Assembly (NCBI GenBank): GCA_946407065.1
Contig: CAMJMQ010000016.1
Coordinates: 1 to 64,000, forward strand
Origin: an uncultured Clostridia bacterium
GTDB taxonomy: Bacteria; Bacillota; Clostridia; Oscillospirales; Acutalibacteraceae
Direction of reading: 5' to 3'
Length of the DNA: 64,000 nucleotides
Below, piece after piece: positions 6,952 through 35,863 of this stretch (the stretch's first letter is position 1; each line of letters begins with the position of its first letter). Below the pieces are notes generated by a model. It was not told where the DNA came from. It ran no database searches and saw nothing but the letters and a program-made list of their open reading frames with translations. Made by a program: the position numbers and the translations under genes.

Positions 6952-7188
6952 CGGGTTTTATGCCGTATTTTGTCCCTTTTTAGGGCATTGCCGTCAAAAA
7001 GCATAAAAAAATCAAAATATTTTAGCTATTCTATCAATGTCTGTCAGCGAAGATTTATGATAAAATAATATAAATATCAATTCGTTGGAAGCATCTGTCC
7101 TGTTTAATCCGCGACCAGTTCCCTTTCTTGTGCGGAACATTATTCGATGATTTCAAATGCCACCGTAAGAAAATCCGTAGGTGATCAT
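6952..7188 (+). other. Intergenic region without a recognised element
   Basis: AT-rich spacer between the phosphatase and the GGDEF gene. No convincing terminator or RNA motif; AAAATAATATAAATAT may include a -10 element for the next gene. Confidence 0.4.
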
Positions 7189-11833: not shown

Positions 11834-12178
11834 TCAGTCGGCGCACAGCGCGGCGAGCGACTCTCTCTTTGTCAAAAGCGCCTCAAGCAGCGGGGTGTAA
11901 TCCATCTCGGTACGCGCGCGCAGCAGCTCCGTCATCTCACAGCACACCTTGTACATCGGCGTGAGCGACAGATTACCCAGCACGCCCTTGAGCGCGTGAG
12001 CCGCCTCAAACGCGCCGTCGAGATCGCCCGACTGCAGGGCGCCTTGCAGCTTATCGAAACTCGCCTCTGCGGGGATCATCCCCACCAGGCGCAGATACAG
12101 CGCCTCGTTGCCGTAGCAGCGGCCGAGGCCTTCCTGTGTATCGGCGCCGAAATCGTTCAGCTTTTCGATGGTCAACAT
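11834..12178 (-). CDS. Stand-alone HPt phosphotransfer protein
   Basis: The 114-aa protein is a helical Hpt domain with the phosphorylatable His in 'AAHALKGVLGNLSL'. It should shuttle a phosphoryl group between receiver domains. Its ATG overlaps the stop of the upstream receiver-EAL gene (ATGTTGA), and GGGGAG lies upstream, so the two are translationally coupled. I start it at 12178; the track ORF's earlier ATG lies within that ribosome site region. With the hybrid kinase two genes upstream it completes a His-Asp-His-Asp relay. Confidence 0.9.
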   Translation of the reverse strand: MLTIEKLNDFGADTQEGLGRCYGNEALYLRLVGMIPAEASFDKLQGALQSGDLDGAFEAAHALKGVLGNLSLTPMYKVCCEMTELLRARTEMDYTPLLEALLTKRESLAALCAD

Positions 12179-13878: not shown

Positions 13879-13891
13879 AGCTATCTCCGTA

Positions 13892-16810
13892 TCATTTTGC
13901 CCTGATACATTCGGCGAGCGTTTTGAGCAGCTCGTCGGGGTTGAAGGGCTTTGCAACATGGGCGTTCATCCCTGCCTCAAAAGCCTCTTGTCTGTCGGTT
14001 TCAAAGGTGTTTGCCGTAATGGCAATGATGGGGATGCTGGCGTTCTCTCCCGCTGACGCGCGGATCCTGCGCGTCGCGTCATAGCCGTTCATCACAGGCA
14101 TCTGGATATCCATCAGGATCGCGCTGTAATAGCCCTTTTCGGACTGTTCGACCATCTCGGCGGCGATCTGACCGTTTTCGGCGACGTCCACGGTGAAGCC
14201 CTCCTGTGTGAGGATCATCGAGGCGATCTCGATGTTGATCGGGTTATCATCCGCCAGCAGGATCCGCACGCCGCTGAAATCGATTTTCTCGTTCTCACTC
14301 TGATCGGATGCGGTGTGTACCTCATCCTCTTTCGCGAGCGGAAAGCTCAGACGTACCGTAAAGGTGGAGCCCTTGCCCTGCTCGGTTTCGATCAGGATCG
14401 TGCCGTTCATCATCTCGACGAACTTTTTGGTGATCGCCATGCCCAGGCCCGTTCCCTGGATCGCGTCGACGGTACGGCTGCGCTCGCGCTCGAACGAGTC
14501 AAAGATACGCTCGGCAAATTCCTTGCTCATACCGATACCCGTATCGCTGACGCTGATTTCGTAGGTCTTTTCCTGTCCGGCTGTTTTTAGCTCTGTCAGC
14601 TTGGCGCTGACGCTGCCGCCGGAGGGCGTATACTTGTACGCGTTGGAGATCAGGTTGAGCAGGATGCGGTTGAGGCGGTTTTTATCACAGATGACATAGC
14701 GATCCTTGACGCCGCTGTGATCCACCGTATAGGTCAGCGGCTTTGCCTGCATTTGCAGGTCAAAAATATGACAGGTCTCGTCAAAGATCTCGATCAGGTC
14801 GGCGGGAGCGGGGTCGAGCTCCATCTTGCCGGATTCGATGTGACTCATATCGAGGATATCGTTGATCAGCGAGAGCAGTTGTTTTCCCGAGGTATCGATC
14901 TTCTCAAGATAGGCGCGGGTCGAGTCAGGCACGCCATCCTCCTTGAGCGCCAGCGCCGTGTAGCCGGTGATCGCGTTCATCGGCGTGCGGATATCATGGC
15001 TCATGTTGGAGAGGAAGGTGCTTTTGGCGCGGCTGTTTTCCTCCGCAAGCAGCCGTTCGGCTTCGATCAACTGCTCCCGCTTTTTGATGATGGAAAAGAT
15101 GCTGAATATCAAGAGTAAGGAGCCAAGCAGCAGCCCGCCGAGGATCAGGACGTTTTTTCTGACGGTCTCGGCGAACTCATTGAAGCGGTCACCCAGAAAA
15201 CGATTCGTCCGTGTGACGCTGTCATGATGGGCTTCCAGTCCCGCCTGTCCGGCTAGGTCGGTGTGTACCTCCTGCACCTCTTGTGTGACTTCCTTTGCGT
15301 GGTCAACGGTAGTTCGGTTCACCCATGATACGGATACCAAGAGGATCAGACAGAACAGGATGATCCATACGACGGTGCTCTTACCGATCAGTCGGGTTTT
15401 GTCACGCTGCATCAACGCGCGGAACACGATCATACCGATCAGGCTCCACAGGATCAGGATCATATAGGATTCCGCCGCCAGCTCGCTTTGCGAGCGGATA
15501 TGAGGCAGCAGATAGGAGACCGCAAAGATCATGGTGATCAAGGTGCCGATCACGCCGATCAGCAGCGCGGAGAACTTCTTCTCTCGTTTGCCGACGACAA
15601 CGGCACAGATGGATACATAGATATAGACGATCGTCGCGCCGATGGTGGTGACGTCGACGATCCAGCCGATCGCCGTTCTGCCGAAGAACGGGATGATCAT
15701 GGAGATGATCGCGACACACCAAAGCGCGCGTGAGGGGATCCCCTTTTTGTTGAGCTGTCCGACTTTTTTGGGGAGCATATTGTCGGCGGACATGCGAAAG
15801 ATCAGTCGGCTCAGCGCGATCATGTTGCCGATCAAGCCGGTGAAAATGCCGCAGAATGACGCGACGCCTAAGATGATCAGACCGGTCGTTCCCATCGTGC
15901 TCTGCGCGGCGTAAAAGGTCGGCAGACCGCGGATGCCGTCGATGTCGGATAATACGCGGATGTAATCGCTCCAGCTACGGAAGCCGTCGGGCACCGCCAC
16001 AGCGGCGCACAGCGTGAGCATCGTATACGCGAGCGCTCCTGTAGCGAGCGCCGCGATCAGGATCAAAAGGATCTTTTTCGGCTTGAAGTGAAATTCCTCC
16101 GCCGAATGGGAGACCGACTCAAAGCCGATGAACGCCCACGGCGCAAGGATCACGATCGTCAGGATCTGAGAGAAAGGATCGCCCTGTGAGGAGAAGGCGG
16201 GTGTGATTCCGCCGAGCCCGCCGCGACGGATCACGATGGTGACAAAGCATACGGCGATCCCCGCGAACAGCAGAACCGCGCCAATCGTCTGGACCCACGC
16301 CGCAAGGCGTTTGCCCGCAACGCAAACCAGACACGCGGCGGCGAGGATCGCGACGGACAGGAGCACCTCGCCCATATAGACGGTGTAGCCCGCGATCTGA
16401 TAGGAAAAGCCGAAGCAGAAGATGTCGCCGAACAGAAAACGCACGATCAGGGACAGCGCCGTGCTGTTTGCCCAGATGATCGCCGCGTAGGTCAACAGCA
16501 GCATCCACGCGCACAAAAAGCCGTGGTCGCTTCCGAGCACCTTGGCGGCAAAGATATAGGAGCCGCCCGCGTCGGGGTAACGCTCCATCAAAAAGCGGTA
16601 GCTCAGTCCGATGATCAGCATGATGACCGCGCCGATCAGCAGTCCGATCACCGAGCCCCACGGTCCCGCAATGGGCAAAAAGGTAGTGCCGGGCATGACA
16701 AAAGCGCCCCAGCCGACGGCACTGCCGAAGGCGAGTGCCCATACCGCGACCGGGGAGAGGTATTTGGTCAGCCCGTTGTTATTTTGATTGGTGCTTTGAA
16801 TACGAATCAT
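13892..16810 (-). CDS. Amino-acid-permease-like transporter fused to hybrid histidine kinase
   Basis: The 972-aa protein joins three parts. Residues about 15-480 are an APC-superfamily permease ('AFGSAVGWGAFVMPGTTFLP', 'ERYPDAGGSYIFAAK'). A further transmembrane section (about 480-595) leads to a histidine kinase with His in 'FLSNMSHDIRTPMNAITGY' and an ATP lid ('ISVSDTGIGMSKEF', 'GTGLGMAITKKFV'). A C-terminal receiver has Asp in 'ILMDIQMPVMNGYDA'. Permease-kinase fusions are thought to sense the ligand they bind or transport. It heads an operon with receiver-EAL, HPt and HD-GYP genes, so its output is probably c-di-GMP breakdown. GGAGCATACT places the start at MIRIQ (16810); three upstream Met codons have poorer spacing. 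Confidence 0.9.
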   Translation of the reverse strand: MIRIQSTNQNNNGLTKYLSPVAVWALAFGSAVGWGAFVMPGTTFLPIAGPWGSVIGLLIGAVIMLIIGLSYRFLMERYPDAGGSYIFAAKVLGSDHGFLCAWMLLLTYAAIIWANSTALSLIVRFLFGDIFCFGFSYQIAGYTVYMGEVLLSVAILAAACLVCVAGKRLAAWVQTIGAVLLFAGIAVCFVTIVIRRGGLGGITPAFSSQGDPFSQILTIVILAPWAFIGFESVSHSAEEFHFKPKKILLILIAALATGALAYTMLTLCAAVAVPDGFRSWSDYIRVLSDIDGIRGLPTFYAAQSTMGTTGLIILGVASFCGIFTGLIGNMIALSRLIFRMSADNMLPKKVGQLNKKGIPSRALWCVAIISMIIPFFGRTAIGWIVDVTTIGATIVYIYVSICAVVVGKREKKFSALLIGVIGTLITMIFAVSYLLPHIRSQSELAAESYMILILWSLIGMIVFRALMQRDKTRLIGKSTVVWIILFCLILLVSVSWVNRTTVDHAKEVTQEVQEVHTDLAGQAGLEAHHDSVTRTNRFLGDRFNEFAETVRKNVLILGGLLLGSLLLIFSIFSIIKKREQLIEAERLLAEENSRAKSTFLSNMSHDIRTPMNAITGYTALALKEDGVPDSTRAYLEKIDTSGKQLLSLINDILDMSHIESGKMELDPAPADLIEIFDETCHIFDLQMQAKPLTYTVDHSGVKDRYVICDKNRLNRILLNLISNAYKYTPSGGSVSAKLTELKTAGQEKTYEISVSDTGIGMSKEFAERIFDSFERERSRTVDAIQGTGLGMAITKKFVEMMNGTILIETEQGKGSTFTVRLSFPLAKEDEVHTASDQSENEKIDFSGVRILLADDNPINIEIASMILTQEGFTVDVAENGQIAAEMVEQSEKGYYSAILMDIQMPVMNGYDATRRIRASAGENASIPIIAITANTFETDRQEAFEAGMNAHVAKPFNPDELLKTLAECIRAK

Positions 16811-16916
16811 AGTATGCTCCATATCCTCCATGACGGCGGATGGCAAACCACCATCTTTGTTATGGGTGCGAGGTCGCCGTGGATTATTTGTTCGCGGCTT
16901 TTATGTTAACTGATTT

Positions 16917-17209: not shown

Positions 17210-19750
17210 ATGAACACAGGTTTTTTCGATCTGCTGAAAACAGTCAGACAGCCCGAAGCCATCGTTCAGTTTCTTGACAATTCATCCTATGATGAGCTGC
17301 TCGAAATCGATCTGAATCAGCAGACTTTCAAAAGCTTATTCCATATTGCCAAAAAGTACGCCATGCCGCTGTCACAGGGCACCTACCGGGAGGTGTTCAT
17401 CGGCATGTCCGAGGAACTCATCCACCCCGGTGAACGCGACAGATTTGTTGAGCTGATGCATCCGGAAACGGTGATGTACCGGCTGTCCGAATCCGAGATC
17501 CCCGGACTGTATTGCGAAGAATACCGTTTTCGGCTGATCGTCGGCAATTGGCACTGGGTAGAGCTGGTGCTGATCGCGGGAGAGGATTACGGGCTGACGC
17601 CCAATGTCATCCGTATGTATGTCTTTGACTGCCAGAGTCGCAAGATCCGCGAACTGGGGTTGACCGACACCGCGGTGTATGCCGACAACAACCGAAGCGA
17701 AATGACCGGATTGCTGAAAAAGCGCCCCTTCATCAAAGAGGTGAAACAGCGCATCAAGGATGAAGGGAAAGAATGGTGTCTGGTCAGTATCGATATCGAT
17801 AATTTCAAGCTCTTCAACGAATGGTACGGCCACAGCGAGGGCGATCTCTTGATGGTACAAATCGGTGCGACGCTGCTCGAAGCCGGTGATCGTACCGGCG
17901 GTACGGCGGGTTACTTCGGACAGGATGATTTCTGTCTGCTGATCCCCTACGACATGGAGCTGATCGGTCACATCTATGAGGATATCGCCTCTTTGATCGG
18001 CTCTCGCGGCAGCAGCTCGAGCTTTTTGCCCGCGTTCGGCGTTTGTATCGTCAAGAAAGAGTATGAGCTGATGGATATGCTCGACCGTGCGCTGTTGGCG
18101 GCACAGGTCGCGAAGGAAGGCTACCACAGCCGCATCCGTATATTTGAAAAGGGAATGTATTCGCGCACCAATGAAGAATATCGCGTGCTCACCGATTTTT
18201 CACGGGCGCTCAAGCAGCATGAGATCGTCTTTTATTTGCAGCCGCAATGCCGCGCGTCATCGGGCAAGATCGTCGGTGCCGAGGCGCTGGCGCGTTGGGT
18301 CAAGCCCGACGGTACGGTCGTGCCGCCCGACGCGTTCATCCCCGTACTCGAAAAGCGCGGGCTGATCTCCGACTTGGATCTGTATATCTGGGACAATGTT
18401 TGCCGCTGGATGCACGACTGGATCGAGAGCGGACACACACCGCTGCCCGTATCGGTGAACGTGTCGGTCTCCGATATCCTGCACACCGACCTTCCCGCTA
18501 TCTTTGAAAACCTGATCAACAAATACTCTCTGGAACGCAGTCTTCTCAAGATCGAGATCACCGAATCCTCCTACATCACCAACACGGCGCTCGTCATGGA
18601 TACCGTTCGATCGTTAAGGGAAAAGGGCTTTACGGTGCTGATGGACGATTTCGGCAGCGGCAGCTCCACCTTGAATATGCTCAAAAATCTGAATATCGAC
18701 GTCATCAAGCTCGACGCGCAGTTTTTGAACATGGATGAAAGCAACGAGGAAAAGAGCATTCGCATCCTGGAATCCGTCACCAATATGACCAAGACGATCG
18801 GTGTGCCGATCATCGTGGAGGGCGTCGAGACCAAGGAACAGAGGGATTTTCTGGTCGACATGGGATGCCGCTATATCCAGGGCTACTACTTCTTCCGCCC
18901 CATGCCGTCAGAGGACTTTGAAAATCTGATCGATAATCCTGAGAAGATCGATACCTCGGGGATCGTCTTCAAGGCGAACCAGCAGTTCCGCCTGCGCGAG
19001 CTGCTCGACAGCAACATCTACAGCGATACCATGCTCAACAACATCCTCGGCCCGTGCGCGCTGTACTCGTGGCACGGCGATGATGTGGATATCGTGCGCT
19101 ATAACGAACAGTTCTATGAGGCGGTCGACGTTCCCGATTTTAAGGATCGTCTGACCTGTATCCAGCGCTTTTTGCCCAAGGCGGACATTCCGCGGATCAC
19201 CGAGCTGCTGCGTCTGGCGCAGCGCGACCGACTCAACGGCTCCAAGGGACTGCTGCATTTCTATAAAACCGACGGCACACTGACTACCTTTGATATGCAT
19301 TTTTATTATCTGCACAGCGAGGGAGAGGAAAAGATCTTCTACGGCTCCGTGCGGAATATCACCAAGCTGAGCAATCTGGAAAAGCAGATGTCGTGGTTGT
19401 CGCATATCTCGAGGGACACGGTTCTTTTTCTGTCCCAAACCTCCGATGATGATCTCCGTTTCACCGTGCTGTTCAACGGTCTGGAGAATATCATCGGCAT
19501 CAGTGCCCATGAACTGGAGGTCGAGCTGAACCGCGAGGACTTCTTCAACAGGATCGGCTCCGAAAACAGGCTCTCCTCTTATCGCGACATCCTGAAAAAG
19601 ATCAAAAGCTCCGAACCGTTCTCGGAGAAGCTGAGCATAAAAAACGCGAACGGAGAATCGGTAGAGCTGAATGCGATCGGTAACTATATGCCCGACGAGA
19701 CGAACACGATGAATTATATCATCATCCTGAGCAGCATATCGAAAGAATAA
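17210..19750 (+). CDS. PAS-GGDEF(degenerate)-EAL-PAS signalling protein
   Basis: This is a soluble 846-aa protein. An N-terminal PAS-like region (about 20-155) precedes a GGDEF domain whose signature is GQDDF, a partly degenerate form that may bind rather than cyclise GTP. The EAL domain (about 320-585) keeps 'EALARW', 'NVSVSDI', 'EITESSY', 'MDDFGSGSSTL', 'IKLDAQFL', 'VEGVET' and 'QGYYFFRPMP', so it should hydrolyse c-di-GMP. About 260 C-terminal residues look like one or two further PAS-type folds ('DVDIVRYNEQFYEAV', 'VRNITKLSNLEKQM'), an unusual place for sensors after EAL. It is a single gene with its own promoter and terminator. Confidence 0.88.
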   Translation: MNTGFFDLLKTVRQPEAIVQFLDNSSYDELLEIDLNQQTFKSLFHIAKKYAMPLSQGTYREVFIGMSEELIHPGERDRFVELMHPETVMYRLSESEIPGLYCEEYRFRLIVGNWHWVELVLIAGEDYGLTPNVIRMYVFDCQSRKIRELGLTDTAVYADNNRSEMTGLLKKRPFIKEVKQRIKDEGKEWCLVSIDIDNFKLFNEWYGHSEGDLLMVQIGATLLEAGDRTGGTAGYFGQDDFCLLIPYDMELIGHIYEDIASLIGSRGSSSSFLPAFGVCIVKKEYELMDMLDRALLAAQVAKEGYHSRIRIFEKGMYSRTNEEYRVLTDFSRALKQHEIVFYLQPQCRASSGKIVGAEALARWVKPDGTVVPPDAFIPVLEKRGLISDLDLYIWDNVCRWMHDWIESGHTPLPVSVNVSVSDILHTDLPAIFENLINKYSLERSLLKIEITESSYITNTALVMDTVRSLREKGFTVLMDDFGSGSSTLNMLKNLNIDVIKLDAQFLNMDESNEEKSIRILESVTNMTKTIGVPIIVEGVETKEQRDFLVDMGCRYIQGYYFFRPMPSEDFENLIDNPEKIDTSGIVFKANQQFRLRELLDSNIYSDTMLNNILGPCALYSWHGDDVDIVRYNEQFYEAVDVPDFKDRLTCIQRFLPKADIPRITELLRLAQRDRLNGSKGLLHFYKTDGTLTTFDMHFYYLHSEGEEKIFYGSVRNITKLSNLEKQMSWLSHISRDTVLFLSQTSDDDLRFTVLFNGLENIIGISAHELEVELNREDFFNRIGSENRLSSYRDILKKIKSSEPFSEKLSIKNANGESVELNAIGNYMPDETNTMNYIIILSSISKE

Positions 19751-20030: not shown

Positions 20031-24387
<4,357 letters not shown>

Positions 24388-24391
<4 letters not shown>

Positions 24392-25800
24392 TGTTCAAAC
24401 TCCTTCCGCTGGATCTTGCCCCATGTTTTACGAAGTTTACGGTATTTGATGATACCCTCCACACGGAAGATGGTGATGATCTGTCGGTAGCCGAAGTTCT
24501 CGAGGATCGCGTAGACGGAGATCGCGATGCTCTGCTTGGCGGTCATCGCGGCACGGTGGGTGTACTGTTCCAGCACGAGGCTGCCCTCCGATAGGATAAC
24601 GCCCAAGGATACCGACAGCAGGAAATAAATGACAAAGAAGAACATGTTCAGCTCGCCCATGATCAGCGTGAACGGTATCAGAAAATAACCGATCGTTTCG
24701 ACCACAGCGCCGAACAGCTCGAAGATCCAGTTGTAGGGCATCGATACCATTCCGACAAAGCCGTAGCGCGGGTTGAAGGTCATGCCGGCATGCGAGATCA
24801 GCGTATCCATCAAGCCGATCTGCCAGCGGCGGCGCTGGCTGCGGATGTCGTTGAGCGACATCGGGCCCTGCGTCCAGCAAACCGAGAATTCGTTGAAGGT
24901 GACTTTATATTTTCTGCGGTGCTTGCGCATATAGTGGTGGATGCGGACGACGATCTCCATATCCTCGCCGATGGTGTTCTTCTTGTAGCCGCCCACCTCG
25001 ATAACGGTCTGCTTGCGGAACAGTCCGAAAGCGCCCGAGACGATGAGCAGGGAGTTGGACGCCGCCCAAAAGACACGCCCCATCAAAAAGGAGCGGTAGT
25101 ACTCGACGATCTGGAAACGCTCAATGAGCTTTTTGGGCATGGTAAAGCCCTTGAGCTCGCCGTCGACGATCTTGGAGCCGTTCGCGATACGCACGATACC
25201 GCCCGCGACGACGGTGCGGGAATCCTTAATGAACTCCAACGACAGGCGCAGCAGCGCGTCCTTTTCGATACGGGAGTCGGCGTCCAGACAGGTGAACAGC
25301 GGATATTTGGAGATATTGATGCCCGCGTTCAGCGCGTCGGACTTACCGCCGTTTGCCTTTTGGACATACAGCAGGTTGGGGTAGGTCTTACTGTAATAGA
25401 CCGCCTCGATCTTCTGGGTCGGGATCTGGTAGCGGATCGAGGTCTCGATCTTGTGCATATGAAAGGCGTTGATCACCCTGTCGCCTGTCTTATCCGTTGA
25501 GCCGTCGTTGACGACGATGATCTCAAAATGCGGATAGTTGAGCTTCATAAGCGAGCGGACATTCTGCACGATATGCTCCTGCTCGTTATATGCGGGGATG
25601 ATCAGCGAGATGGGCAGGAGGTTTTCACTGTCCTCATAGCTGAGATAATCATCGGAAAAGGTCCTGTTATAGTTGTGGTGTACGCGGAAAAAGGACACAA
25701 AGAGCTGGATGATATATATTATGTTGAGCAACAGCGTAAAAGCCATGCAGAAGTAATTGAAATACACGATAAAGTAGCGTATCGCATTCAAAAATCCCAC
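24388..25800 (-). CDS. Processive family-2 glycosyltransferase (exopolysaccharide synthase)
   Basis: The 470-aa protein has N-terminal membrane helices (to residue 40), a GT2 catalytic domain, and three or four C-terminal helices. The D,D,D,QxxRW signature is complete: 'VVNDGST', 'LDADSR', 'TIGEDME' and 'SQRRRWQIG', as in BcsA, PgaC and hyaluronan synthases. It should polymerise a sugar nucleotide and extrude the chain. No PilZ domain follows, so direct c-di-GMP binding is not evident. Translation starts at a GTG with TAGGAGG upstream. It sits between a HEAT-repeat protein and two glycosidase-like proteins. Confidence 0.9.
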
Positions 25801-25886
25801 AGTCTGTTCCTCCTAATCTGATAGTCAGGGCACTACCGCACACCTGAATTTTGCGGTGTTGCCTTTGTTAACGGATGATCATATCC

Positions 25887-26957
25887 TCAGGTGTCGACCG
25901 TTTTATACAGCACGTTCTTCATCGCGTCGGCGGCAAAACGGTCGTATCCGCCTAAGATCTCTTCCAGATCCCTGGGCGAGATATCCATACGGGTGAGCGA
26001 CTGCGCCGCTGTCTGGCGCACCCACCATTCCTTGTCGCCCAGCGCGTGCTTGACGGTGTTGAGCGCGGTCTGCGTCTTTAAGAGCGACAGCCCTCTGACC
26101 GCCGAGGAACGGATCACCCAGTCCTTATCGCCCGCGGCGATCTGCAGGATCTGTTCATCCTCGGGGTAGCCGAAAGCGGCGAGCGCCTTGACGCACGCGA
26201 TCTTGAGCTGGTTATCGTCGCCCGACGCGCCCTCGATGTACATGTTTCTGAAGCCGTCGATCTTGTACTGCGCGATCGTCTTGATGACGGTGCACTTCAT
26301 GTACTTGTTGCATTTTTCAAAGAGCATTGCGGCGAGCTCCTCCCGGTCGCCGGTGAACTGGTCAAAAAATTCGTTGACGATCCTGCCGGAATACTGCGTA
26401 TCGTTCTCAATGCGCAGCAGGTACGCGGCGACCTCATAGACGTCGCCCATCTCACACAGCGCCATCGCGGCGTTATATGCCAGATCTCTGTCCTTGCTGT
26501 CGACACATTCCTTGATCTTGTCGCGGTACTCCAGCGCCTCCAGATCGGCGAGCCTTCTGCAGGCATAGCCCTTGTGGTAGACGTCGCCCTCGTCAAGCAT
26601 CTTGGCGTACATCGCAACAGGATCGACCTGCGTATTGATGCGCTCGATCAGCTTCTCTTTGGCTTCATCATCAAAGCCGGAGCCCTGATGCTCTTTGATT
26701 TCTTTTACAGCCATCTCATAAACGGCGTATTCTCCGTTTATCTCGTCTGCCAATGCCGTTATCTCGGCGTCACGACTGCCCTGTGTGGGTGCATAGAGCA
26801 CCCCTTCCACATGGATATCAAGCCTGCGCCTGATGTTATCGTTGCGGGCTGTATGCTCATCCTGCAATTCAGCCAGCCGATAAAGAAGAATGTACTCTAT
26901 GCCTATGATCAACAGGCACAGCAGTAACCCGATAACGCTTATCAGTTCGATCTTCAA
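25887..26957 (-). CDS. Membrane-anchored HEAT-repeat protein
   Basis: The protein (about 356 aa) has one N-terminal transmembrane helix ('ISVIGLLLCLLIIGIEYILLY') and then a long helical solenoid of HEAT-like repeats, for example 'DKDWVIRSSAVRGLSLLKTQTALNTVKHALGDKEWWVRQTAAQSLTRM'. HEAT solenoids serve as protein-binding scaffolds, here probably for the neighbouring glycosyltransferase. The track ORF begins at a TTG with no ribosome site. I prefer an internal TTG near 26957 that has CAGGAG about nine bases before it and gives M-KIELISVIG. No ATG lies near the membrane segment. The exact start base is uncertain. Confidence 0.75.
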   Translation of the reverse strand: MKIELISVIGLLLCLLIIGIEYILLYRLAELQDEHTARNDNIRRRLDIHVEGVLYAPTQGSRDAEITALADEINGEYAVYEMAVKEIKEHQGSGFDDEAKEKLIERINTQVDPVAMYAKMLDEGDVYHKGYACRRLADLEALEYRDKIKECVDSKDRDLAYNAAMALCEMGDVYEVAAYLLRIENDTQYSGRIVNEFFDQFTGDREELAAMLFEKCNKYMKCTVIKTIAQYKIDGFRNMYIEGASGDDNQLKIACVKALAAFGYPEDEQILQIAAGDKDWVIRSSAVRGLSLLKTQTALNTVKHALGDKEWWVRQTAAQSLTRMDISPRDLEEILGGYDRFAADAMKNVLYKTVDT

Positions 26958-27025
26958 GCGGTTATCTCCTGTTTGTCGGCCTCCCTGAGGAGGTGGGGCT
27001 TTTCTCAAGCCCCCTTTTTATTGAT

Positions 27026-27070
27026 AATAGTCTTTGCGATGCCCCTTTAGGGGCTGTGGCAATCTCAACC
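27026..27070. repeat. REP-like palindrome (TTGCGA...GGCAATCTCA family)
   Basis: ATAGTCTTTGCGATGCCCC and GGGGCTGTGGCAATCTCAAC form a palindromic element of the same family as those at 48041, 48950, 55325 and 58308. It lies in the gap between two genes of the operon. Confidence 0.75.
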
Positions 27071-27101
27071 GATGGACACGTTAGTGCTTGCACCGGGAAG
27101 T

Positions 27102-30100
27102 TTATTGCCCCGAAAAATATTGTTTGAGTGTATCAAAGCTCTCCTTGCGGCGGGAGGCGTACTTGACGGTCTCCCATTTATCCCACTGAAAGACTTTGTA
27201 TCCGGGGTCGTGTTTATCGACGGGGAAGGCATACATCAAGTCGCCCTCCTCACGCTCGCCGACCATGACGGATACCAGCACGCCGTTGGTGGTGACGGTC
27301 TTGGCGGTCTTCTCCTTGAAGGAGGTGTCATTGATCACGAGCTTTTTGGACGGATCGGCGACGTTGAGCCATGTCCACGGCAAGCGGATATAGATCGTCG
27401 AGCCGGTCTGGTAGAACTGGGTATCGCCCGAGGTAAAGCCGCCGTAGCTCAGATCTGCCACCTTGTTGTAGTCGCCGGTATAGCTTTCTTTGGTATATGC
27501 CGAGCCCTTGCTGCGGTCATAGGTCTCGATGACGTACAGCGCGGCGTTCTGCTTGCCCTCAAAGCGGAGGGAGTATTCCATACCGGAGAGGGAATTCGCC
27601 GTGAAGTCGTCGGCATAGTAATATTCACCGTCGTTGCGCTGGAAGGTATCCAGACCGATGAACATCGCGTTATCCTTATAATCGATCTCCTGTAGCAGCT
27701 GCAGGGTGATATACAGATAGCCCGCGTCGCTGTACATGGAGACCGCCTGCGCCAGGTCGTCGTCGGAGAGGACCAGACCCGGTGTCTCGGGCATCACGCT
27801 GTCCATCGCGATCAGACCGGTCATCTGCTCGGGGTCACAGGTGTTGTGCCACAGATGGCTGTCGGAGGCGGAGGAGCTGAAGAACGCCATGTCCTCGCCG
27901 ACCTCGCTCCAACTGTCGTTGAGGTCATACACGGTCGCGCCCAGGATGTCGCTGTCCTTCGCTGCCTTGAGTGCTGAGATGATCCGCTCACCCTGCTGTG
28001 CCTCGGTGACCGCGTCCTGATCGTAAACCGCGTTGACGTCAGAGAACGATACACCCGAAGCGAGCACAGGCGACGTGATCTTTTTGAGCTCGTTGAAAAC
28101 GCTCAGATACTTTGTCTCTACGGTGTCGGATTTTTTGCCGCCGCCAATGATCTTCGCGTTATCGAGAGCGATATCACAGAAGTAATATTCCTGACAATCG
28201 TCAGTGACGATGTCGTTGAACACATACGCGTTTTTATCCTTGACGCCCGTCATACCCTTGATCATCTCATAGGAGCCGCAGACGGAAACAGGCGTATGGT
28301 AATCGTAATCATCGCAGGAAACCGTCTGGGCGGTATCGTACAGATATGCCGCAAAGCCCTCGACGCCCTTGCTTTCCTTGACATACTTGCCGCTGTAGGA
28401 ATAGGAGGAAAGCCCGGTCATCGCCGCGACGTTCTGAGAGGTCAGCGCGGGATCGATGCTCACGCCCAGCACATACTCCGATACATCGATGAAGTAGGTC
28501 GCCGCGCCGAGCTTTTCACTCTGCGCGTGGCCGTTGCCGTGGAGCGCTTTGATCGTAGTCGTGATCGACTCCTTCCATTGATCGAGGCCGTCGGACTTGA
28601 GATAATCCGCAGCACTGAGCTCATCGGGCACACCGGTGCGCTGCAGGATATAGATCGCCCCATTCTCGGGATTCTTGTTATAGCGGCTGACTGCCGCGTA
28701 GAACTCGGGCGGTAACAGATCCTTTGCCACAAGACAGTTGACGCCCATCTCGCCGGCGGATTTGATCAGATCCTCATAGAAGGTGAAATCGCGCGAGTAG
28801 GTCGCCTTGCCGGGCTCCTGCGCGTTCAGGGCGGCGGCTTTGAGCGTCATGCCGCGCCACTTTTCATCCTCGAGCACCTGGAAGCTGCCGTTGTTGACGC
28901 GCGCGACCTCCGCGTGCGCCTCCTTCTCCTCTACATACTTATTGCTCTTGGTATCGGACAGGATATGGCGGATCAGCGGATTGTAGAACCGCCAGTAAAA
29001 GTTGGAAATATCGCCCTGTCGGTCGTAGGACAGGAATTTGAAAAACTGGTTGGAGAATAGAAAATCGCCGTAGCGGTCGCCGTTAACATAGTCGTTGCAG
29101 TCGCCCGCAAAGTAGTAGACGGGCGCATAGCCCTCTTCCTGATGGCGTGAGATCGCGCAGAAGCGCGGTGTTTTGCTGATCTCGCTGATCTTTTCCATAC
29201 CGGTGGCGTTGAGGTCAAAATCAAAGGTCGCCAGCGTTTCAACGCCGTAGTTCGGCTCGACAAGCTCGAACCAATTATAGAAGTTGCATTTATCGCAGCC
29301 GGAGAATTCCTTGCGGTATTCCTCGTTGATATAGATCCGCAGCAGATTTTTGGATAAGAAATCCGTATTCTGCTCCAAGATGATAATCTTGCCGTCGGAC
29401 GATACCAGCAGGATACCGGGGCCGGTAAAGCGCCATTCAACGCCCTCCTGCTGCTCATACATCGGCGGCGCCCAGTCGGGAACGTCGGTAAAGTCCTCCA
29501 GATCGACGATATACCTGCCGATCCACTTGGTCGGATTGACGCCGGTGAGCGCGATCAACTGAGCGCGTACCGAGTCGGACAGCGGCGAGCTGAAGAAGGT
29601 GCTCTCCGCAATGATCGGAGCGCCGCTCTCATGCGCGAAGGAGATATACGACATATCGTCGTCGGAGATACCGCCGTTCAGCGGTGAGCCGCCGTTATAG
29701 TGACCGAAGGTATCGTTGCCCAGACCGTAGGCGTCGGAGAGATAGAGCAGGTCGGGCGTGGCATTCGCGTCCTTGAGCTCGACGTCATGGTCAAAGTTAC
29801 CCTCTTCATCGAGCATCGGGCCGAAATAATCCTTTTTATAGTCATAATACTTTCCGTCGGGCTTGACATACCGCTGCTGATGCATGATCCAGTAAAAGCC
29901 CTGGTGCTTACGGTACACGGTATGCTTGATGATGTTCTCATCATCCGCGTAGGCGAGCACGGTTTTGTCCAGTACCGCGACATTCATCGCTTTCTTCGGG
30001 ATCAGATGCCATATGCCGAACAGCAGGATGAGGAACAAAACGATGACGGCAGCCACGATGTGGTACCATTTGAATCTCTTGATATAGAACTTGACCTTTG

Positions 30101-30191
30101 ACTTGCGCGCGGTCTGCTGCTCTTCAAAAGCCTTTTCCTCTGGTGTGGTCGGGACATAGTCGGTCTGCTTATTCTTATTTTCTTTTGACAT
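27102..30191 (-). CDS. Large membrane-anchored glycosidase-like paralogue lacking catalytic Glu
   Basis: The 1029-aa protein has a cytosolic N-tail, one membrane helix ('IVAAVIVLFLILLFGIWHL') and a large outer part. Residues about 70-440 form a unique domain ('LLYLSDAYGLGND', 'GAPIIAESTFFSSPLS', 'KWIGRYIVDLED'). From about 460 it follows its two paralogues, but where they have 'GIEWDP' and 'VAEFGIPTSRG' it reads 'GVSIDP' and 'LASGVSFSD', so both candidate catalytic Glu residues are gone. The C-terminus again looks like a carbohydrate-binding sandwich. It may bind or guide the polymer without cutting it. I start at the ATG at 30191 (AGGCGG before it), not the GTG of the track. Confidence 0.78.
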   Translation of the reverse strand: MSKENKNKQTDYVPTTPEEKAFEEQQTARKSKVKFYIKRFKWYHIVAAVIVLFLILLFGIWHLIPKKAMNVAVLDKTVLAYADDENIIKHTVYRKHQGFYWIMHQQRYVKPDGKYYDYKKDYFGPMLDEEGNFDHDVELKDANATPDLLYLSDAYGLGNDTFGHYNGGSPLNGGISDDDMSYISFAHESGAPIIAESTFFSSPLSDSVRAQLIALTGVNPTKWIGRYIVDLEDFTDVPDWAPPMYEQQEGVEWRFTGPGILLVSSDGKIIILEQNTDFLSKNLLRIYINEEYRKEFSGCDKCNFYNWFELVEPNYGVETLATFDFDLNATGMEKISEISKTPRFCAISRHQEEGYAPVYYFAGDCNDYVNGDRYGDFLFSNQFFKFLSYDRQGDISNFYWRFYNPLIRHILSDTKSNKYVEEKEAHAEVARVNNGSFQVLEDEKWRGMTLKAAALNAQEPGKATYSRDFTFYEDLIKSAGEMGVNCLVAKDLLPPEFYAAVSRYNKNPENGAIYILQRTGVPDELSAADYLKSDGLDQWKESITTTIKALHGNGHAQSEKLGAATYFIDVSEYVLGVSIDPALTSQNVAAMTGLSSYSYSGKYVKESKGVEGFAAYLYDTAQTVSCDDYDYHTPVSVCGSYEMIKGMTGVKDKNAYVFNDIVTDDCQEYYFCDIALDNAKIIGGGKKSDTVETKYLSVFNELKKITSPVLASGVSFSDVNAVYDQDAVTEAQQGERIISALKAAKDSDILGATVYDLNDSWSEVGEDMAFFSSSASDSHLWHNTCDPEQMTGLIAMDSVMPETPGLVLSDDDLAQAVSMYSDAGYLYITLQLLQEIDYKDNAMFIGLDTFQRNDGEYYYADDFTANSLSGMEYSLRFEGKQNAALYVIETYDRSKGSAYTKESYTGDYNKVADLSYGGFTSGDTQFYQTGSTIYIRLPWTWLNVADPSKKLVINDTSFKEKTAKTVTTNGVLVSVMVGEREEGDLMYAFPVDKHDPGYKVFQWDKWETVKYASRRKESFDTLKQYFSGQ

Positions 30192-30213
30192 GAACACACC
30201 GCCTTACTGTCGG

Positions 30214-32421
30214 TTATTGTGCGGTTACAGCTTTGGTACCGTTTTCTTCTTCGCCGATGAACGCAAGGAACTGCTCACAGATAGCGGGGTCAAAGATCTT
30301 GCCCTCGTTATCCTTGAGGTAACGCATCGCGTCCTCCTTGCTCCACGGCTTTTTATAGGTTCGCTCGGAGATCAGCGCGTCATATACGTCGCATACTGTG
30401 ACGACGCGCGCCTCGACGGGGATCTCCTCACCCTTTAATCCGTTGTTGCCGGTACCGTCGTAACGCTCGTGATGATAGCGTGCGATCACGGCGGCTGTGG
30501 CGAGCATGGGATCATCGTCATATGCCGAGAGGATGGTATAGCCGAATTCGGTATGGCTGTTGATGATCACGCGTTCTTCTTCACTGAGCCTGCCCTCTTT
30601 ATGGATGATGTCCTTGGGTACGGCGATCTTGCCCAGGTCGTGCAGCTCCGAGGCGATGGAGATACGCTCGGCTCTCTCCTCTTCGATGCCGATCCTCAGA
30701 CACAGCTCGCGGCTATTGTTCCTGATATTGATCAGGTGATCGACGCTGCAGCCGTTGTCAATCTCTGTATTTTCGGCAAGCTCGGCAAAGATCACGTTGA
30801 TATCGCGGTGGGTACCGTCGGTGAAGATATCTTCATAGGTGGTCACCAGTCCGCAGTAGGCGGCTTCGATCATGCTGATGAAGAAGACGTCCATACCGTC
30901 TTTGATGTTCTCAAAATGGAAGACAGCGCCGACTTGATCATTGTTTTTGAGGATGTATTCAAAATAAGTCCCCGCAAACAGACATTCCTTATCATTCTTG
31001 CGTCCGTTTTGCTCGATCAGGTCATAGCGGCAGCCTTCGATTCCGTTGTTGACCACTTCCGTGTAAGCATCTCCGTTTTTGACGGCGACGCAGTAGCGGA
31101 TATCGGTGTTGTCCGGATGATATTTGACGATCAAATCGAGGATCTCGCGGACAGCCGTATCATAAAACCTCGATTTGTCACGACAATCGAGCATATGGCG
31201 GATAAACTGCGAGATGCCCTCTACCGATTTGCTGTATTTGGTGCTCTGAAGGCGAACGTCGCTGTTCTGCTTTTCCTGACGGAAGTGGCGGATATAGATG
31301 TATTCGAGCACGCACATGATGACGATCGACGATATCGTGACATTATAGATGTACAGGATCCGCTGGCGGGTGATCATAAAGATCGCCGCGAGCACCATGA
31401 TCATCGTGCAAAATACACACATCACAAAGATGGGCGCCGCGTATTGGATCCGTCGGTCGAGCTGTACCATCGCCGTGTGCGAAACAAACACCGCGGCGGC
31501 GGTGGTGAGCAGGCACATCAGCAGGATGGCGATCTTGACCGTCAGCGGATTGAACGCCACCAGCAGCGCGATCGCCGATATCACGGAAGCGACCAGGATC
31601 GCGATCACGGTTTTACGCGATTCCTTGAACAGTCCGTTCAGGCACAGCAGTACCGCCATAAAGGTGAGGTGAACGGGCAGCGCGGTGATGCTCAGCCACT
31701 TCGGCGTATTGAACGTATAGGTGACTTCGGGCAGCATGTACAGCGCCAGAGCAAGCCCTACATAGCACAGCAGTCCCGAAACGATGACCGAACGGAACAG
31801 GCGTTTTTTGACAGCCGAGAGGATCCCGAAGACGATCGCCGCCAACAGACCGAGCCCCATCAGGATCAGCCCGATGGTAAAGCCGGGCATGTAGGTAAAG
31901 GTCGGATCGCCGGGGGGATTCAGATAGGTCTCAAACCGTACCGAGAAGGGCAGCTTGAGCATGACCTCCAGCTGTCGCTCCTGTGTGGACGGCTCCAGTG
32001 TGACGGCGTTGTAGCAGTTGCCAACATACTCCGCCGTGTCGAATTGGTTATTGTAGATCTCTTTGCCGTTGAGTCGGATCTTGACCGGCGCGAAATCGGT
32101 GATGAGCACAAAGTTGCTCGCCTTATCCGATGGTTCCAGCGTTTTAGTGAAGTAAATATTGCTTTTGTTGCCATCCGATACGATCGGGTTCTGCGCGTTA
32201 TAGATGCGCAGCTCGCCGTCGGGCACGGAGCCCGCCTTTTCGGTATACAGGTAGTTCCAGTTGGAAAAGCGGTTCTCGTCCGTATAGCTGTTGGCGACAT
32301 AGTGCGCGACAAAGTAGACCGCCACGGTCAGCAAAAGGATGATCAGCGATACGCCTAAAAGGGGGAGCACTCCCCCTTTAGTGACCTTGTCATTCAGTTT
32401 TTTTAAGCGGATCTTTTTCAT
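30214..32421 (-). CDS. 7TM-sensor HD-GYP-like protein with altered GYP motif
   Basis: The 735-aa protein has one N-terminal helix, an extracytoplasmic beta domain (about 60-180), seven membrane segments (about 185-380) in the manner of 7TM-DISM sensors, a GAF-like linker, and an HD-GYP domain (about 545-725). 'ELHDLGKI', 'HTEFGY' and 'RYHHERYDGTG' are present, but the canonical GYP reads GNN ('DGTGNNGLKGEEIP'). It may still be a c-di-GMP phosphodiesterase or have a changed substrate. GGAGC precedes the start. Lying within the glycan operon, it could adjust c-di-GMP locally. Confidence 0.85.
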   Translation of the reverse strand: MKKIRLKKLNDKVTKGGVLPLLGVSLIILLLTVAVYFVAHYVANSYTDENRFSNWNYLYTEKAGSVPDGELRIYNAQNPIVSDGNKSNIYFTKTLEPSDKASNFVLITDFAPVKIRLNGKEIYNNQFDTAEYVGNCYNAVTLEPSTQERQLEVMLKLPFSVRFETYLNPPGDPTFTYMPGFTIGLILMGLGLLAAIVFGILSAVKKRLFRSVIVSGLLCYVGLALALYMLPEVTYTFNTPKWLSITALPVHLTFMAVLLCLNGLFKESRKTVIAILVASVISAIALLVAFNPLTVKIAILLMCLLTTAAAVFVSHTAMVQLDRRIQYAAPIFVMCVFCTMIMVLAAIFMITRQRILYIYNVTISSIVIMCVLEYIYIRHFRQEKQNSDVRLQSTKYSKSVEGISQFIRHMLDCRDKSRFYDTAVREILDLIVKYHPDNTDIRYCVAVKNGDAYTEVVNNGIEGCRYDLIEQNGRKNDKECLFAGTYFEYILKNNDQVGAVFHFENIKDGMDVFFISMIEAAYCGLVTTYEDIFTDGTHRDINVIFAELAENTEIDNGCSVDHLINIRNNSRELCLRIGIEEERAERISIASELHDLGKIAVPKDIIHKEGRLSEEERVIINSHTEFGYTILSAYDDDPMLATAAVIARYHHERYDGTGNNGLKGEEIPVEARVVTVCDVYDALISERTYKKPWSKEDAMRYLKDNEGKIFDPAICEQFLAFIGEEENGTKAVTAQ

Positions 32422-32664: not shown

Positions 32665-33354
32665 TTACTCTGCTTTGAGTGAATAGATCACGGGTTTGCC
32701 GTCTTGGATCTTGACCGTGAGTGTCGCTCTGCCGAACAGGGTCTTGCGTTCCAGCTCGTTATAGAAGGTGGTGATGATCTCCGCCTGATCCGAGCTGACG
32801 TTGACCGCGTCGATATTATAATAGATGTTGGTACCGTAAGAGGGGATCCACATCTCAAAGATCTTTTTATCGGCGTTATACAGCATCGAGGAGGTGACGT
32901 TGAAGTCATCGGTGCCGAACTGCGTCTTGAGAACGTCGCGGATCTGCTGTTCCTCGGCGCTGCGGTACTGTACCGTTTTGTTATTGATGGTGTAGAAATC
33001 GTCGAAGAAAACATGGATAAAGGCGTACTGTACGGCAGCCTCGAGCGGGATGTCCTTCGGCTTATCGAACTTCTTTTGCGCCATCATGAACGCCAGCTCA
33101 TAGGAGCGCACCGCATAGTCCTTGACATTGACCGTAACGTCGCCGACCTTTACGGGGTCGGTTTTGCCCTTTCCGTAAGCATAAAAGCCCTCGCGCTCGG
33201 TCTCCTGATCTTCGCTGTCGATCTTGACTTTGTAGTCCGATGTCGCTTGATCCTCCTGCTTCACCTTGGGGTCTACGCCGCAGGCGGAAAAAGCCGATGC
33301 CGCAAAGACAACAGCGGTGAGAAATGCCAGTAATTTTATCATGTGATTCTTCAT
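32665..33354 (-). CDS. Lipoprotein, first gene of the exopolysaccharide operon
   Basis: The 229-aa protein has a signal peptide with lipobox 'AFSAC', then a charged linker and a mixed alpha/beta domain ('FIHVFFDDFYTINNKTVQYRSAEEQQ'). I do not recognise the family. The start at MKNHMIKLL (33354) has AAAGGGG upstream; the longer track ORF has no site. It is the first gene of the minus-strand operon that runs to 20031. Upstream lies an imperfect inverted repeat ATTCCCTGACT...AGTCAAGGAAT (33376-33410) that could be an operator or leader hairpin. Confidence 0.72.
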   Translation of the reverse strand: MKNHMIKLLAFLTAVVFAASAFSACGVDPKVKQEDQATSDYKVKIDSEDQETEREGFYAYGKGKTDPVKVGDVTVNVKDYAVRSYELAFMMAQKKFDKPKDIPLEAAVQYAFIHVFFDDFYTINNKTVQYRSAEEQQIRDVLKTQFGTDDFNVTSSMLYNADKKIFEMWIPSYGTNIYYNIDAVNVSSDQAEIITTFYNELERKTLFGRATLTVKIQDGKPVIYSLKAE

Positions 33355-33533: not shown

Positions 33534-35594
33534 TTATTTCCAGGTGTAGTCGTTGACGCTGGTCAGGAACTCATCCTCGTAGATGCCTTCACCGGAGTTA
33601 TTAACGATGAGGATATCGGCGCTGTTGACCTTTTCATAGTTATGATAAGCGTCACAGGTGATGGTCGAACCGAGCGGAAGGTTGACGGACAGGCTCTCGA
33701 GCGGGGTGTTGATGACCTGCTTGATGCCGGTCTGCTTGTTGTAATCCTCGCCCTCAAAGTGGAATCTGTACGCCATGAAGAAGTTGTTGACATCGGTCTC
33801 GAGGTGCGTATCCTTCGCGTCGATGTTGATGATGATCTTTTTGCCTACGTTGTCGATGATATCGATACCCTTGACGGTGTATCTGTCGGGATCTTCCTTA
33901 GCGGCCTTAGCCAGCTCGTTGAACTCGTTCTGATGAACAACTTCCATTCTGTAGACGACGGTACCGCGGATGCCGTTGCCGTCATCATCAAAGGTGCCGT
34001 TATCCCAGTTGACAGCGCACATCTGGAAGGTGTACTCCTTGCCGACGGTGACGTCCTTCATCTCGCCGCCGTAGTATACGGTGCCGTCCTCAAATACGAC
34101 GGCCATCTTCAGCGGCACATCGATCCTCAGACCGACTTTGCCCTGATCAGCGGGCTCGTCGGGGGTGTCGGGCTCATCGGGCTTCGACTCCTGCGCCTTG
34201 ATGCGGGCCCATACGGAGACGGTGCCTGCGGGAGCGGCGTAGGTCATATCGCCCTTGGTGCTCTCGACCTTGACGCTGGCAACGTCAGCGATCGCGACAG
34301 CGTCCTCGTTGAAGAACCATCTGTCGGAAGAGCCGAAGTAATTGTCGTTGATAGAAAGGGTAGCAGCGTCCTTGTCGACTGCGTAATCGCCTGCTGTCGC
34401 CGCAAAGAGGTCGACGTTGTCGCCGATCACGATGCGATCAGCTACGGGAGTCGCGCCGTCTACGGGAGAAATCTGCTTGCTCGCGCCGATCGCGGGAGCC
34501 TGGGTGGCGCTGATCGCGGTCACCTTGGCGTTGCCGGTGATCTCGATGGTGCCGCCGGTATGTGTACCTCTGCCGGAGCCGATCGCGGCGCCGCCGGAGT
34601 TGAGCTCTTTTGCTCTGTTGTTCGCGGTGATCGCGGTAACGTCAGCGTTGCCGCCGATCTTGACATTTACTGTATAGGTATCCTGATTATACTGAGCGGT
34701 TTTGCTGGTGCCGCGGCCGCCGCCGATGCCTGCGCCGCCGCAGGAACCGATCGCTACGACCTTACCGCCGTTGATCTCAATGTCGGGAGCGGAGGAACCG
34801 TAGCCGCCGCCGATGCCCGCCGCAAAGGTGCCGGGATCGTTTGCGTTCAAAGCAGCCAGATCGCTGTAATCAAAGCCCTGGTTCCATGCGGTAGCCGCAT
34901 AAACCTCGCCGCCGTTGATGACGATACGGCCCGCGCTGTAATCGCCGACTGCCGCAACGCCGGACGCGCCGCCGCTGGTGCCGTAGCCGGTGCCGATACC
35001 GGCGCCGCACTCGTTACCGTAAGCGTGGATCACACCGCCGTTGATGGTGATGGTGTTGGCGTCAACATGATAGCCGGAGCCGATGCCGGAGCCTCTTCTG
35101 CCGGCGAAAGCGTTGATATAACCGCTGTTGATGGTGATCTCGCCGACCTTGACTCTCTCCTCAGCCGGGATGTTGCGGTCTGTACCGTAGGAACCGATCG
35201 CCGCGCCCCAAAGACCGCCGGTCACGTTCAGCGTGCCCTGACCCTCAAAGGTGACCTTGGAGCCGTACTCGACTTCGATACCGCAGGAATATGCGTTGGA
35301 GTCGCCCTCGACGGTGCTGAAGCCCTCTAATACGAAGGTGACGTCGGAGTTGTTCATGACCTTGATCGCGGAACGGCCGGTGGAGAAAACACCCGCGTCG
35401 GCAAGGGTGATCTTGCCGGTCACGCCGTCGATATCGACCGCATTGTAGTCGTTTTCATCCAAAACGTAGTCACCGTTCTCGTTGATGGTGAGCGTTTTTA
35501 AGTCCCCCTCAGCCGCGTTTGCCGCCAGCGGGATCACGGATACCAGCAGAAAGACTGCCAGTAATACGCATAAAATCTTTTTCATCGTAATCAT
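33534..35594 (-). CDS. Secreted beta-helix-type repeat protein under c-di-GMP riboswitch
   Basis: The 686-aa protein has a classic signal peptide ending 'LAANAAEG'. Residues about 30-450 are Gly-rich repeats of the form 'ITINGG..HAYG..CGAGIGTGYGT', consistent with a parallel beta-helix or Cthe_2159-like carbohydrate-binding fold. A C-terminal part (about 470-686) has beta-rich 'KVGLRIDVPLKMAVVFEDGTVYYGGEM' and a second unknown domain. It has no LPxTG motif or S-layer repeats, so attachment may be through glycan binding. It is the sole gene behind a c-di-GMP-I riboswitch. Co-location with the exopolysaccharide operon suggests a matrix or adhesion role. Confidence 0.8.
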   Translation of the reverse strand: MITMKKILCVLLAVFLLVSVIPLAANAAEGDLKTLTINENGDYVLDENDYNAVDIDGVTGKITLADAGVFSTGRSAIKVMNNSDVTFVLEGFSTVEGDSNAYSCGIEVEYGSKVTFEGQGTLNVTGGLWGAAIGSYGTDRNIPAEERVKVGEITINSGYINAFAGRRGSGIGSGYHVDANTITINGGVIHAYGNECGAGIGTGYGTSGGASGVAAVGDYSAGRIVINGGEVYAATAWNQGFDYSDLAALNANDPGTFAAGIGGGYGSSAPDIEINGGKVVAIGSCGGAGIGGGRGTSKTAQYNQDTYTVNVKIGGNADVTAITANNRAKELNSGGAAIGSGRGTHTGGTIEITGNAKVTAISATQAPAIGASKQISPVDGATPVADRIVIGDNVDLFAATAGDYAVDKDAATLSINDNYFGSSDRWFFNEDAVAIADVASVKVESTKGDMTYAAPAGTVSVWARIKAQESKPDEPDTPDEPADQGKVGLRIDVPLKMAVVFEDGTVYYGGEMKDVTVGKEYTFQMCAVNWDNGTFDDDGNGIRGTVVYRMEVVHQNEFNELAKAAKEDPDRYTVKGIDIIDNVGKKIIINIDAKDTHLETDVNNFFMAYRFHFEGEDYNKQTGIKQVINTPLESLSVNLPLGSTITCDAYHNYEKVNSADILIVNNSGEGIYEDEFLTSVNDYTWK

Positions 35595-35700
35595 CCTTTC
35601 TTGATTTGACTTTTGCTTGGGTGATTAAAACATATATATTGATATGATGATATCAATAAACCCTCAGCCGCATGGCGCGGATCGGGATTTTGACCGGATA

Positions 35701-35759
35701 ATAAAAATGACCGCCTGCCAGTTTCTTACACTCGTAAAAAACTATGCAGCCGGTCGGTC
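35701..35759 (-). terminator. Riboswitch expression platform: intrinsic terminator
   Basis: On the minus strand GACCGACCGGCTGC and GGCAGGCGGTC can pair, with an inner stem GTTTTTTAC/GTAAGAAAC, followed by ATTTTTATT. The 5' arm uses bases that also close the aptamer's second stem, so terminator and ligand-bound aptamer look mutually exclusive. Confidence 0.7.
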
Positions 35760-35824
35760 ATATAGAATCGCTATTTAGACACCTGAGCTTTGCGTCCCCG
35801 CCTTTCAGCGAGTTTGCCGTTTTA
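35738..35824 (-). ncRNA. c-di-GMP-I (GEMM) riboswitch
   Basis: The minus strand carries the GEMM core. It reads ACGGCAAACTCGCTGAAAGG then CGGGGACGCAAAGC: a six-pair stem capped by a GAAA tetraloop and flanked by GGCAAA and GACGCAAAGC. TCTAAATAG follows as a tetraloop-receptor-like stretch, then the 3' strand GACCGACCGGC. Its promoter lies directly upstream and a terminator directly downstream. It controls the secreted beta-helix gene. If the 3' strand is shared with the terminator as drawn, c-di-GMP would turn expression on; that direction is inference. Confidence 0.88.
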
Positions 35825-35834
35825 GATATATATT

Positions 35835-35863
35835 ATTTTATCATAGATTTTTGCAAATTGCAA
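35835..35863 (-). promoter_or_regulatory. Promoter of the riboswitch transcript
   Basis: TTGCAA, 17 bases and TAAAAT on the minus strand place the start of transcription just before the aptamer. Confidence 0.65.

Follow-up and report, generated by a model that had tools for sequence, protein, structure and literature searches.

In Bacillus thuringiensis, Bc2 RNA acts on cap by combining a c-di-GMP-I aptamer with an intrinsic terminator, and turns on a cell-surface adhesin by antitermination (PMC4933901). Successive complete c-di-GMP-I aptamers also stand before one gene in thuringiensis (PMC4759541), and tandem and triple arrangements of this aptamer are already known (PMC4759541, PMC12452182). 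In Clostridioides difficile, c-di-GMP output passes largely through riboswitches on surface-factor genes (PMC9286219).

The action of c-di-GMP in gut Clostridia that lack PilZ has been little studied, and the literature that we searched contained no paper linking c-di-GMP riboswitches with rumen bacteria. Here we analyse a 64,000-nt stretch of DNA (the window) from an uncultured Ruminococcus-like gut bacterium, in which a c-di-GMP regulon can be read from the sequence: an aptamer, an adhesin whose tail is common to a family, and a glycan operon.

A c-di-GMP-I aptamer in the window

35742..35828, minus strand: c-di-GMP-I (GEMM-I) riboswitch aptamer (RF01051 score, contact columns, covariation)

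The sequence-only reading had proposed a c-di-GMP-I riboswitch from a GEMM core on the minus strand, GGCAAAC - stem - GAAA - stem - GACGCAAAGC, and had named an Infernal search with RF01051 as the check. The core was found as claimed, and the covariance model matched 35742-35828 (-) over model positions 1-87 of 87 with 64.3 bits, above the gathering score of 35 (E 1.7e-11 in a 4-kb search and 2.8e-10 over the whole window). This was the only match at Rfam gathering level in the 64-kb window, and the folding z of the 141-nt region was -3.9. RF03167 (c-di-GMP-I-GGC), which belongs to the same Rfam clan, is the best-scoring model for three related aptamers (L008, L115 and L116), whereas the window copy scores best to RF01051.

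Alignment columns identified the ligand-contact residues of the window aptamer as G20 (35818), A47 (35791) and C92 (35746), which are kept in 35/37, 37/37 and 37/37 members of the related set, respectively. We take these residues to be model positions 11, 38 and 83, a mapping that follows the numbering of the Vc2 structure. In GGCAAAC, the leading G is G20 itself and the next G pairs in P2; the GAAA tetraloop is invariant in the aligned set, and the receptor strands align to the RF01051 model. Standard pairs filled 96.6% of pair cells across 36 distinct related aptamers, and two-sided changes occurred at 10 of 18 pairs, indicating that the aptamer stems covary; slid controls were at most 45% paired, with two-sided change at no more than 3 pairs. 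In score, contacts and covariation, window 35742-35828 (-) is a genuine c-di-GMP-I riboswitch aptamer and an ordinary member of a well-known class.

The same RNA architecture serves 3',3'-cGAMP in Geobacter (PMC8835794), a GEMM-I RNA with a G20A change was crystallised with cGAMP (PMC6274999), and two of the 37 relatives carry A at position 20 (L007:825 and L025:1888), so that a GEMM-Ib-like ligand has to be weighed here. However, the window aptamer has G20 rather than the A by which GEMM-Ib is recognised, which favours c-di-GMP, and the EAL and HD-GYP-type enzymes encoded in the window are the usual partners of c-di-GMP signalling. We consider cGAMP a very improbable ligand for this copy.

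One P2 pair divides the related set into two equal parts, being C-G in the tandem- and triple-aptamer subset and G-C in the window (18 and 18 of 36 distinct sequences).

Promoter, terminator and predicted switch logic

35835..35863, minus strand: predicted promoter (consensus scan, 9 of 12 matches)
35709..35755, minus strand: intrinsic terminator hairpin, 20 pairs, dG -27.8 kcal/mol (folding; overlap as in all 51 distinct relatives)
35594..35599, minus strand: Shine-Dalgarno sequence AAAGGA, 8 nt before the ATG at 35585

A promoter directly ahead of the aptamer and a terminator directly after it, with one strand in common, had both been claimed, and both were recovered. The promoter comprises a -35 element TTGCAA (35863-35858), a 17-nt spacer and an extended -10 element TG-A-TAAAAT (35840-35835). 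Because the scan found 6 such sites where 3.3 were expected by chance, the promoter alone is weak evidence; its position relative to the aptamer supports it. Since the -35/-10 pair ends at 35835, the transcript should start within a few bases of the aptamer, at about 35828.

The terminator has the arms GACCG.CUGC.UAGUUUUUUAC and GUAAGAAACUG.GCAG.CGGUC, followed by the U-rich tail AUUUUUAUU at 35708-35699 (-). Its 5' arm (35755-35742 and on) is made of the 3' strand of aptamer P3, C92 and the bases that follow, and thus uses 14 aptamer nucleotides. In stepwise folding, the aptamer was the minimum-energy fold of a nascent RNA of 88-95 nt and was displaced by the terminator by an RNA length of 115-120 nt; the complete terminator fold reached -43.9 kcal/mol, as compared to -31.8 kcal/mol for the best fold that keeps the aptamer. 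Because the terminator competes with the aptamer and beats the aptamer-keeping fold, ligand binding must oppose termination, and because it takes C92 among the 14 bases, the ligand should block termination, which makes an ON switch. The ON switch that had been predicted is thus borne out at the level of computed overlap and fold competition. Likewise, a T-tailed hairpin beginning inside the aptamer was present in 51 of 51 distinct related riboswitches, the overlap being at least 4 nt in 50.

In the mechanism that we propose, transcription would start just 5' of the aptamer, which would fold first. With c-di-GMP bound, P3 and C92 would be sequestered, no terminator would form, and RNA polymerase would read into the gene; with no ligand, the terminator hairpin would invade the 3' strand of the aptamer and transcription would stop. 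The c-di-GMP-I riboswitch very probably acts on transcription, as an ON switch ahead of the gene for a secreted beta-helix protein, with ligand binding and termination inferred. It should turn this protein on when the biofilm signal c-di-GMP is high.

Translational platforms do occur among the related riboswitches. In three loci from other genera or families (L114-L116), the hairpin after the aptamer, inspected by eye, contains the Shine-Dalgarno sequence beside the ATG, which suggests that the ON logic is kept there but acts on translation. In the window, however, it is a terminator that competes with the aptamer, the ribosome site lies about 100 nt past it, and no anti-antiterminator element was seen at the riboswitch. 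Of the alternatives that we weighed, the least credible is accordingly a switch that turns the gene OFF or acts on translation alone, and we retain the transcriptional ON switch.

Further elements flank the riboswitch. A second promoter-like site (35656-35629) lies 3' of the terminator, and any transcript started there would escape the switch; an inverted repeat, TTGATAT-catc-ATATCAA (35656-35639), overlaps it between the terminator and the gene, and another, ATATC-gt-GATAT (35913-35902), lies upstream of the promoter. Both repeats are possible operators of a further regulator. It could be argued that the aptamer is a relic and that the gene is driven from another promoter, such as this second site with its inverted repeat, the more so as two orthologues of the downstream gene have no aptamer (L015 and L097). 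Yet the contacts are intact, pairing is strongly conserved and the terminator overlap is kept in 51 distinct relatives, and we find a relic highly unlikely in comparison with a working ON switch.

The predicted target protein and its C-terminal domain

33534..35585, minus strand: secreted beta-helix protein P0001 (translation, PF18889, AlphaFold2 model)
33537..34187, minus strand: C-terminal domain of about 217 aa, common to riboswitch-controlled proteins (alignment of 32 copies)

The open reading frame of P0001 was listed from 35594 (686 aa as listed), but the ATG at 35585 is the likelier start because AAAGGA at 35599-35594 points to it. In P0001, a signal peptide is followed by repeats of a right-handed beta-helix, and a linker rich in acidic residues and Pro (about 465-485) leads to the C-terminal domain. 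Its N-terminal hydrophobic signal and a Pfam match to PF18889, Beta_helix_3 (E 5e-12, 46.1 bits), agree with the secreted beta-helix target of the sequence-only reading. An AlphaFold2 model of the full-length protein was all-beta at moderate confidence (pLDDT 71), with low confidence in the linker. Foldseek with this model gave nothing below E 0.17, so that we assign the beta-helix class from the Pfam match and the repeat pattern. The best viral fold match (E 1.1e-3) had a TM of 0.21 and was rejected. No known surface anchor of the LPXTG, SLH or transmembrane-tail kind was found in P0001, in which we looked for Pfam anchor families, a C-terminal hydrophobic segment and, by eye, LPXTG.

The C-terminal domain was modelled as mostly beta with one helix (pLDDT 86.8). 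None of its 32 copies matched Pfam, an NCBIfam search gave nothing significant, no sequence relative was found in the PDB, the best Foldseek match to a PDB fold had E 0.07, and a plasmid search found no copy. A weak, partial likeness to CBM20 starch-binding domains, with a probability of about 0.5-0.8, an E above 0.1 and a TM to target not exceeding 0.43, was not taken as homology. The N-terminal parts of the proteins that end in this domain differ, being beta-helix, pAdhesive_15 ice-binding-like (E 1e-26 and 4e-31) or short and unknown. P0001 belongs to a set of paralogous, exported, adhesin-like proteins whose N-terminal parts vary and whose C-terminal domain is common to all.

The domain and the aptamer occur together

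Searching with the protein sequence, blind to RNA, we obtained 33 loci. Wherever upstream sequence was available, an aptamer stood ahead of the domain gene, also for second copies within a locus; L015 was the one exception. At L015:2600-3000, where the aptamer would stand, there is a long near-perfect hairpin. Three c-di-GMP-I aptamers occur in the genome itself, which comprises 2.71 Mb in 56 contigs: the window copy and a tandem pair on another contig (G000 contig C23:40118-40409; L004:9619-9910). The tandem pair is followed by a gene whose product closes with the C-terminal domain of P0001, at 76% identity. Triple c-di-GMP-I aptamers stand ahead of domain genes in L019-L021. The aptamers at L007:825-911 and L025:1888-1973, also ahead of domain genes, have A at the G20 equivalent, the change linked to cGAMP in GEMM-Ib.

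In a sample of 100 genomes of the genus, we found 54 aptamers in 30 genomes, of which 53 in 29 genomes were over the cut-off, and 37 domain genes in 22 genomes. One riboswitch match of 30 bits (G010) was below threshold and taken as chance. Three domain genes cut by contig ends (G004:C92, G078:C82 and G007:C199) were left out; a same-strand aptamer lay just upstream in 33 of the 34 evaluable genes, the exception being G058:C18 (L097). Here, as at L015, the P0001 orthologue has either lost the aptamer or never had one. An aptamer over the cut-off was present in 21/22 genomes with the domain and in 8/78 others (Fisher 4e-14, related species not being independent).

Outside the genus, 295 genomes of the order were sampled. 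The domain occurred at high score in four other genera (G142, G256, G195 and G221) as five copies, all 5 of which follow an aptamer of the c-di-GMP-I clan; those of G195 and G221 match RF03167 just under its gathering score (56.9 and 58.8 vs 59, E about 1e-11). A fifth genus (G276) gave a marginal domain match with stops.

The neighbouring lipoprotein and glycan operon

32665..33354, minus strand: lipoprotein, next gene downstream of P0001, associated gene (synteny)
20031..32421, minus strand: glycan operon adjoining P0001 and the lipoprotein (Pfam/NCBIfam matches, paralogy, co-occurrence)

The glycan operon encodes an HD-GYP-type protein, a 1031-aa protein, a HEAT-repeat protein, a PgaC-like GT2 and proteins of 747 and 706 aa. 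The 1031-, 747- and 706-aa proteins are glycosidase-like and mutual paralogues. The GT2 resembles PgaC/IcaA, although its 127.6 bits fall far short of the equivalog cut-off (422). Close orthologues of the 706-aa protein (65% identity or more) were present in 20/22 domain genomes and 0/78 others, in a co-occurrence test that, like the one above, ignores shared ancestry.

Whether the switch extends to these genes depends on read-through past P0001, which would also drive the lipoprotein, HD-GYP-type and glycan genes, so that one aptamer would control adhesin and polysaccharide. All of these genes share one strand, and P0001, the lipoprotein and the HD-GYP-type gene stay together, the latter two following P0001, in orthologous loci that reach that far. 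In four sister genomes (G074, G057, G092 and G060; L098, L099, L100 and L104), the lipoprotein orthologue stands directly behind its own c-di-GMP-I riboswitch and is followed by the HD-GYP-type and 1031-aa genes, so that the riboswitch immediately precedes the glycan operon. The gap between P0001 and the lipoprotein shows no evident T-tailed terminator, only two long hairpins, a perfect one of 15 bp after P0001 (33511-33476) and one of 14 pairs before the lipoprotein start (33413-33378). These hairpins, even with no clear T run, count against read-through, as do the separate riboswitches for the two units in G092 and the 244-nt gap that precedes the HD-GYP-type gene. Control of the whole locus by one aptamer is thus a serious possibility, although we lean slightly against it; the ON switch for P0001 is the reading that we carry forward.

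We infer a matrix role for the domain proteins from their linkage to the glycan operon, that is, from synteny, co-occurrence and the PgaC/IcaA-like GT2. Tentatively, and with homology contributing nothing, we suggest that the C-terminal domain attaches its proteins to the cell surface, where they are presumed to reside, or to the exopolysaccharide of the adjacent operon. Through such attachment, c-di-GMP would raise matrix proteins and matrix sugar together.

Fourteen over-threshold aptamers in the genus sample have no domain gene behind them. Four precede the lipoprotein/glycan operon, seven precede a VTC gene, as judged from near-identical protein starts, and three (G018, G022 and G049:C57) precede unrelated genes. 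One VTC operon (L111:1128-7200) comprises VTC, DUF4956, a polysaccharide deacetylase, CotH and a glycosidase-like protein paralogous to the 706- and 747-aa proteins of the window, and similar operons lie behind a c-di-GMP-I riboswitch in G045, G049, G023 and G043. We found no paper linking the c-di-GMP-I riboswitch with a VTC - DUF4956 - polysaccharide deacetylase - CotH operon. From the genes that the aptamers precede, the riboswitch output of the genus consists mainly of surface proteins and polysaccharide operons.

Enzymes and receptors for c-di-GMP

Where seven c-di-GMP enzymes had been counted in the region, Pfam supported six: two GGDEF proteins, a response regulator-GGDEF-EAL protein, a GGDEF-EAL protein and two of HD-GYP type, one of which has no obvious GYP motif. 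Among the GGDEF domains of the window, only those at 7147-8280 and 8359-9468 keep the GGDEF motif; the proteins at 12172-13959 and 17210-19750 keep EAL but not GGDEF. The two EAL genes of the genome both lie in the window, as do four of its five GGDEF genes. The fifth (G000 C23:39545-39987) stands immediately upstream of the tandem aptamers and, close to its end, passes into a second reading frame through either a real frameshift or an assembly error. At window 11834-16846, an amino-acid-permease/histidine kinase/receiver fusion adjoins an Hpt protein and a receiver-GGDEF-EAL protein, which looks like a phosphorelay tying amino-acid transport to c-di-GMP breakdown.

The absence of a PilZ receptor, noted earlier for the region, held for the whole genome, in which none was detectable while control genomes gave matches. 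Similarly, no MshEN receptor was detectable in the genome, with positive controls. A c-di-GMP-II riboswitch was not found in this genome or in any control genome, so its absence is not proven. Because the GGDEF-degenerate EAL proteins at 12172-13959 and 17210-19750 could themselves act as c-di-GMP receptors, the riboswitches are not proven to be the sole receptors.

Meaning and comparison with known systems

The analysis adds to the sequence-only reading the common C-terminal domain, a tandem aptamer pair on another contig of the genome, and the sister genomes with a riboswitch directly before the glycan operon. As an overall picture, somewhat less secure than the attachment proposed above, the undescribed domain may define a family of exported proteins, of matrix or adhesin type, whose expression depends almost obligately on c-di-GMP-I ON riboswitches. 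In the Ruminococcus-like gut bacteria concerned, which lack PilZ, riboswitches would be the main or only c-di-GMP receptors and would drive adhesins together with a domain-bound PNAG-like polysaccharide. Such a regulon bears on riboswitch-led c-di-GMP signalling and on the attachment of these bacteria. The riboswitch-linked domain family and the PilZ-less regulon appear to be undescribed in the searchable literature and are the parts most worth following, the conserved domain lending itself to structural and binding studies.

The riboswitch itself belongs to a known kind, since its mechanism and target type match those of Bc2/cap: both have a c-di-GMP-I aptamer, an intrinsic terminator, antitermination ON logic (predicted here) and an adhesin-type target. 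The target of Bc2 is a cell-wall-anchored collagen adhesion protein, whereas that of the window switch is a beta-helix protein in which no LPXTG was seen and whose C-terminal domain is undescribed; the host is Bacillus thuringiensis in the one case and, in the other, an uncultured gut bacterium whose switch is known here from its sequence. The tandem arrangement of thuringiensis (PMC4759541) resembles the tandem pair and the triples described above, while the window copy is single. The likeness to Clostridioides difficile lies in the output of c-di-GMP through riboswitches on surface-factor genes; there, however, class II up-regulates and class I down-regulates (PMC9286219), whereas the class I riboswitch of the window is a predicted ON switch.
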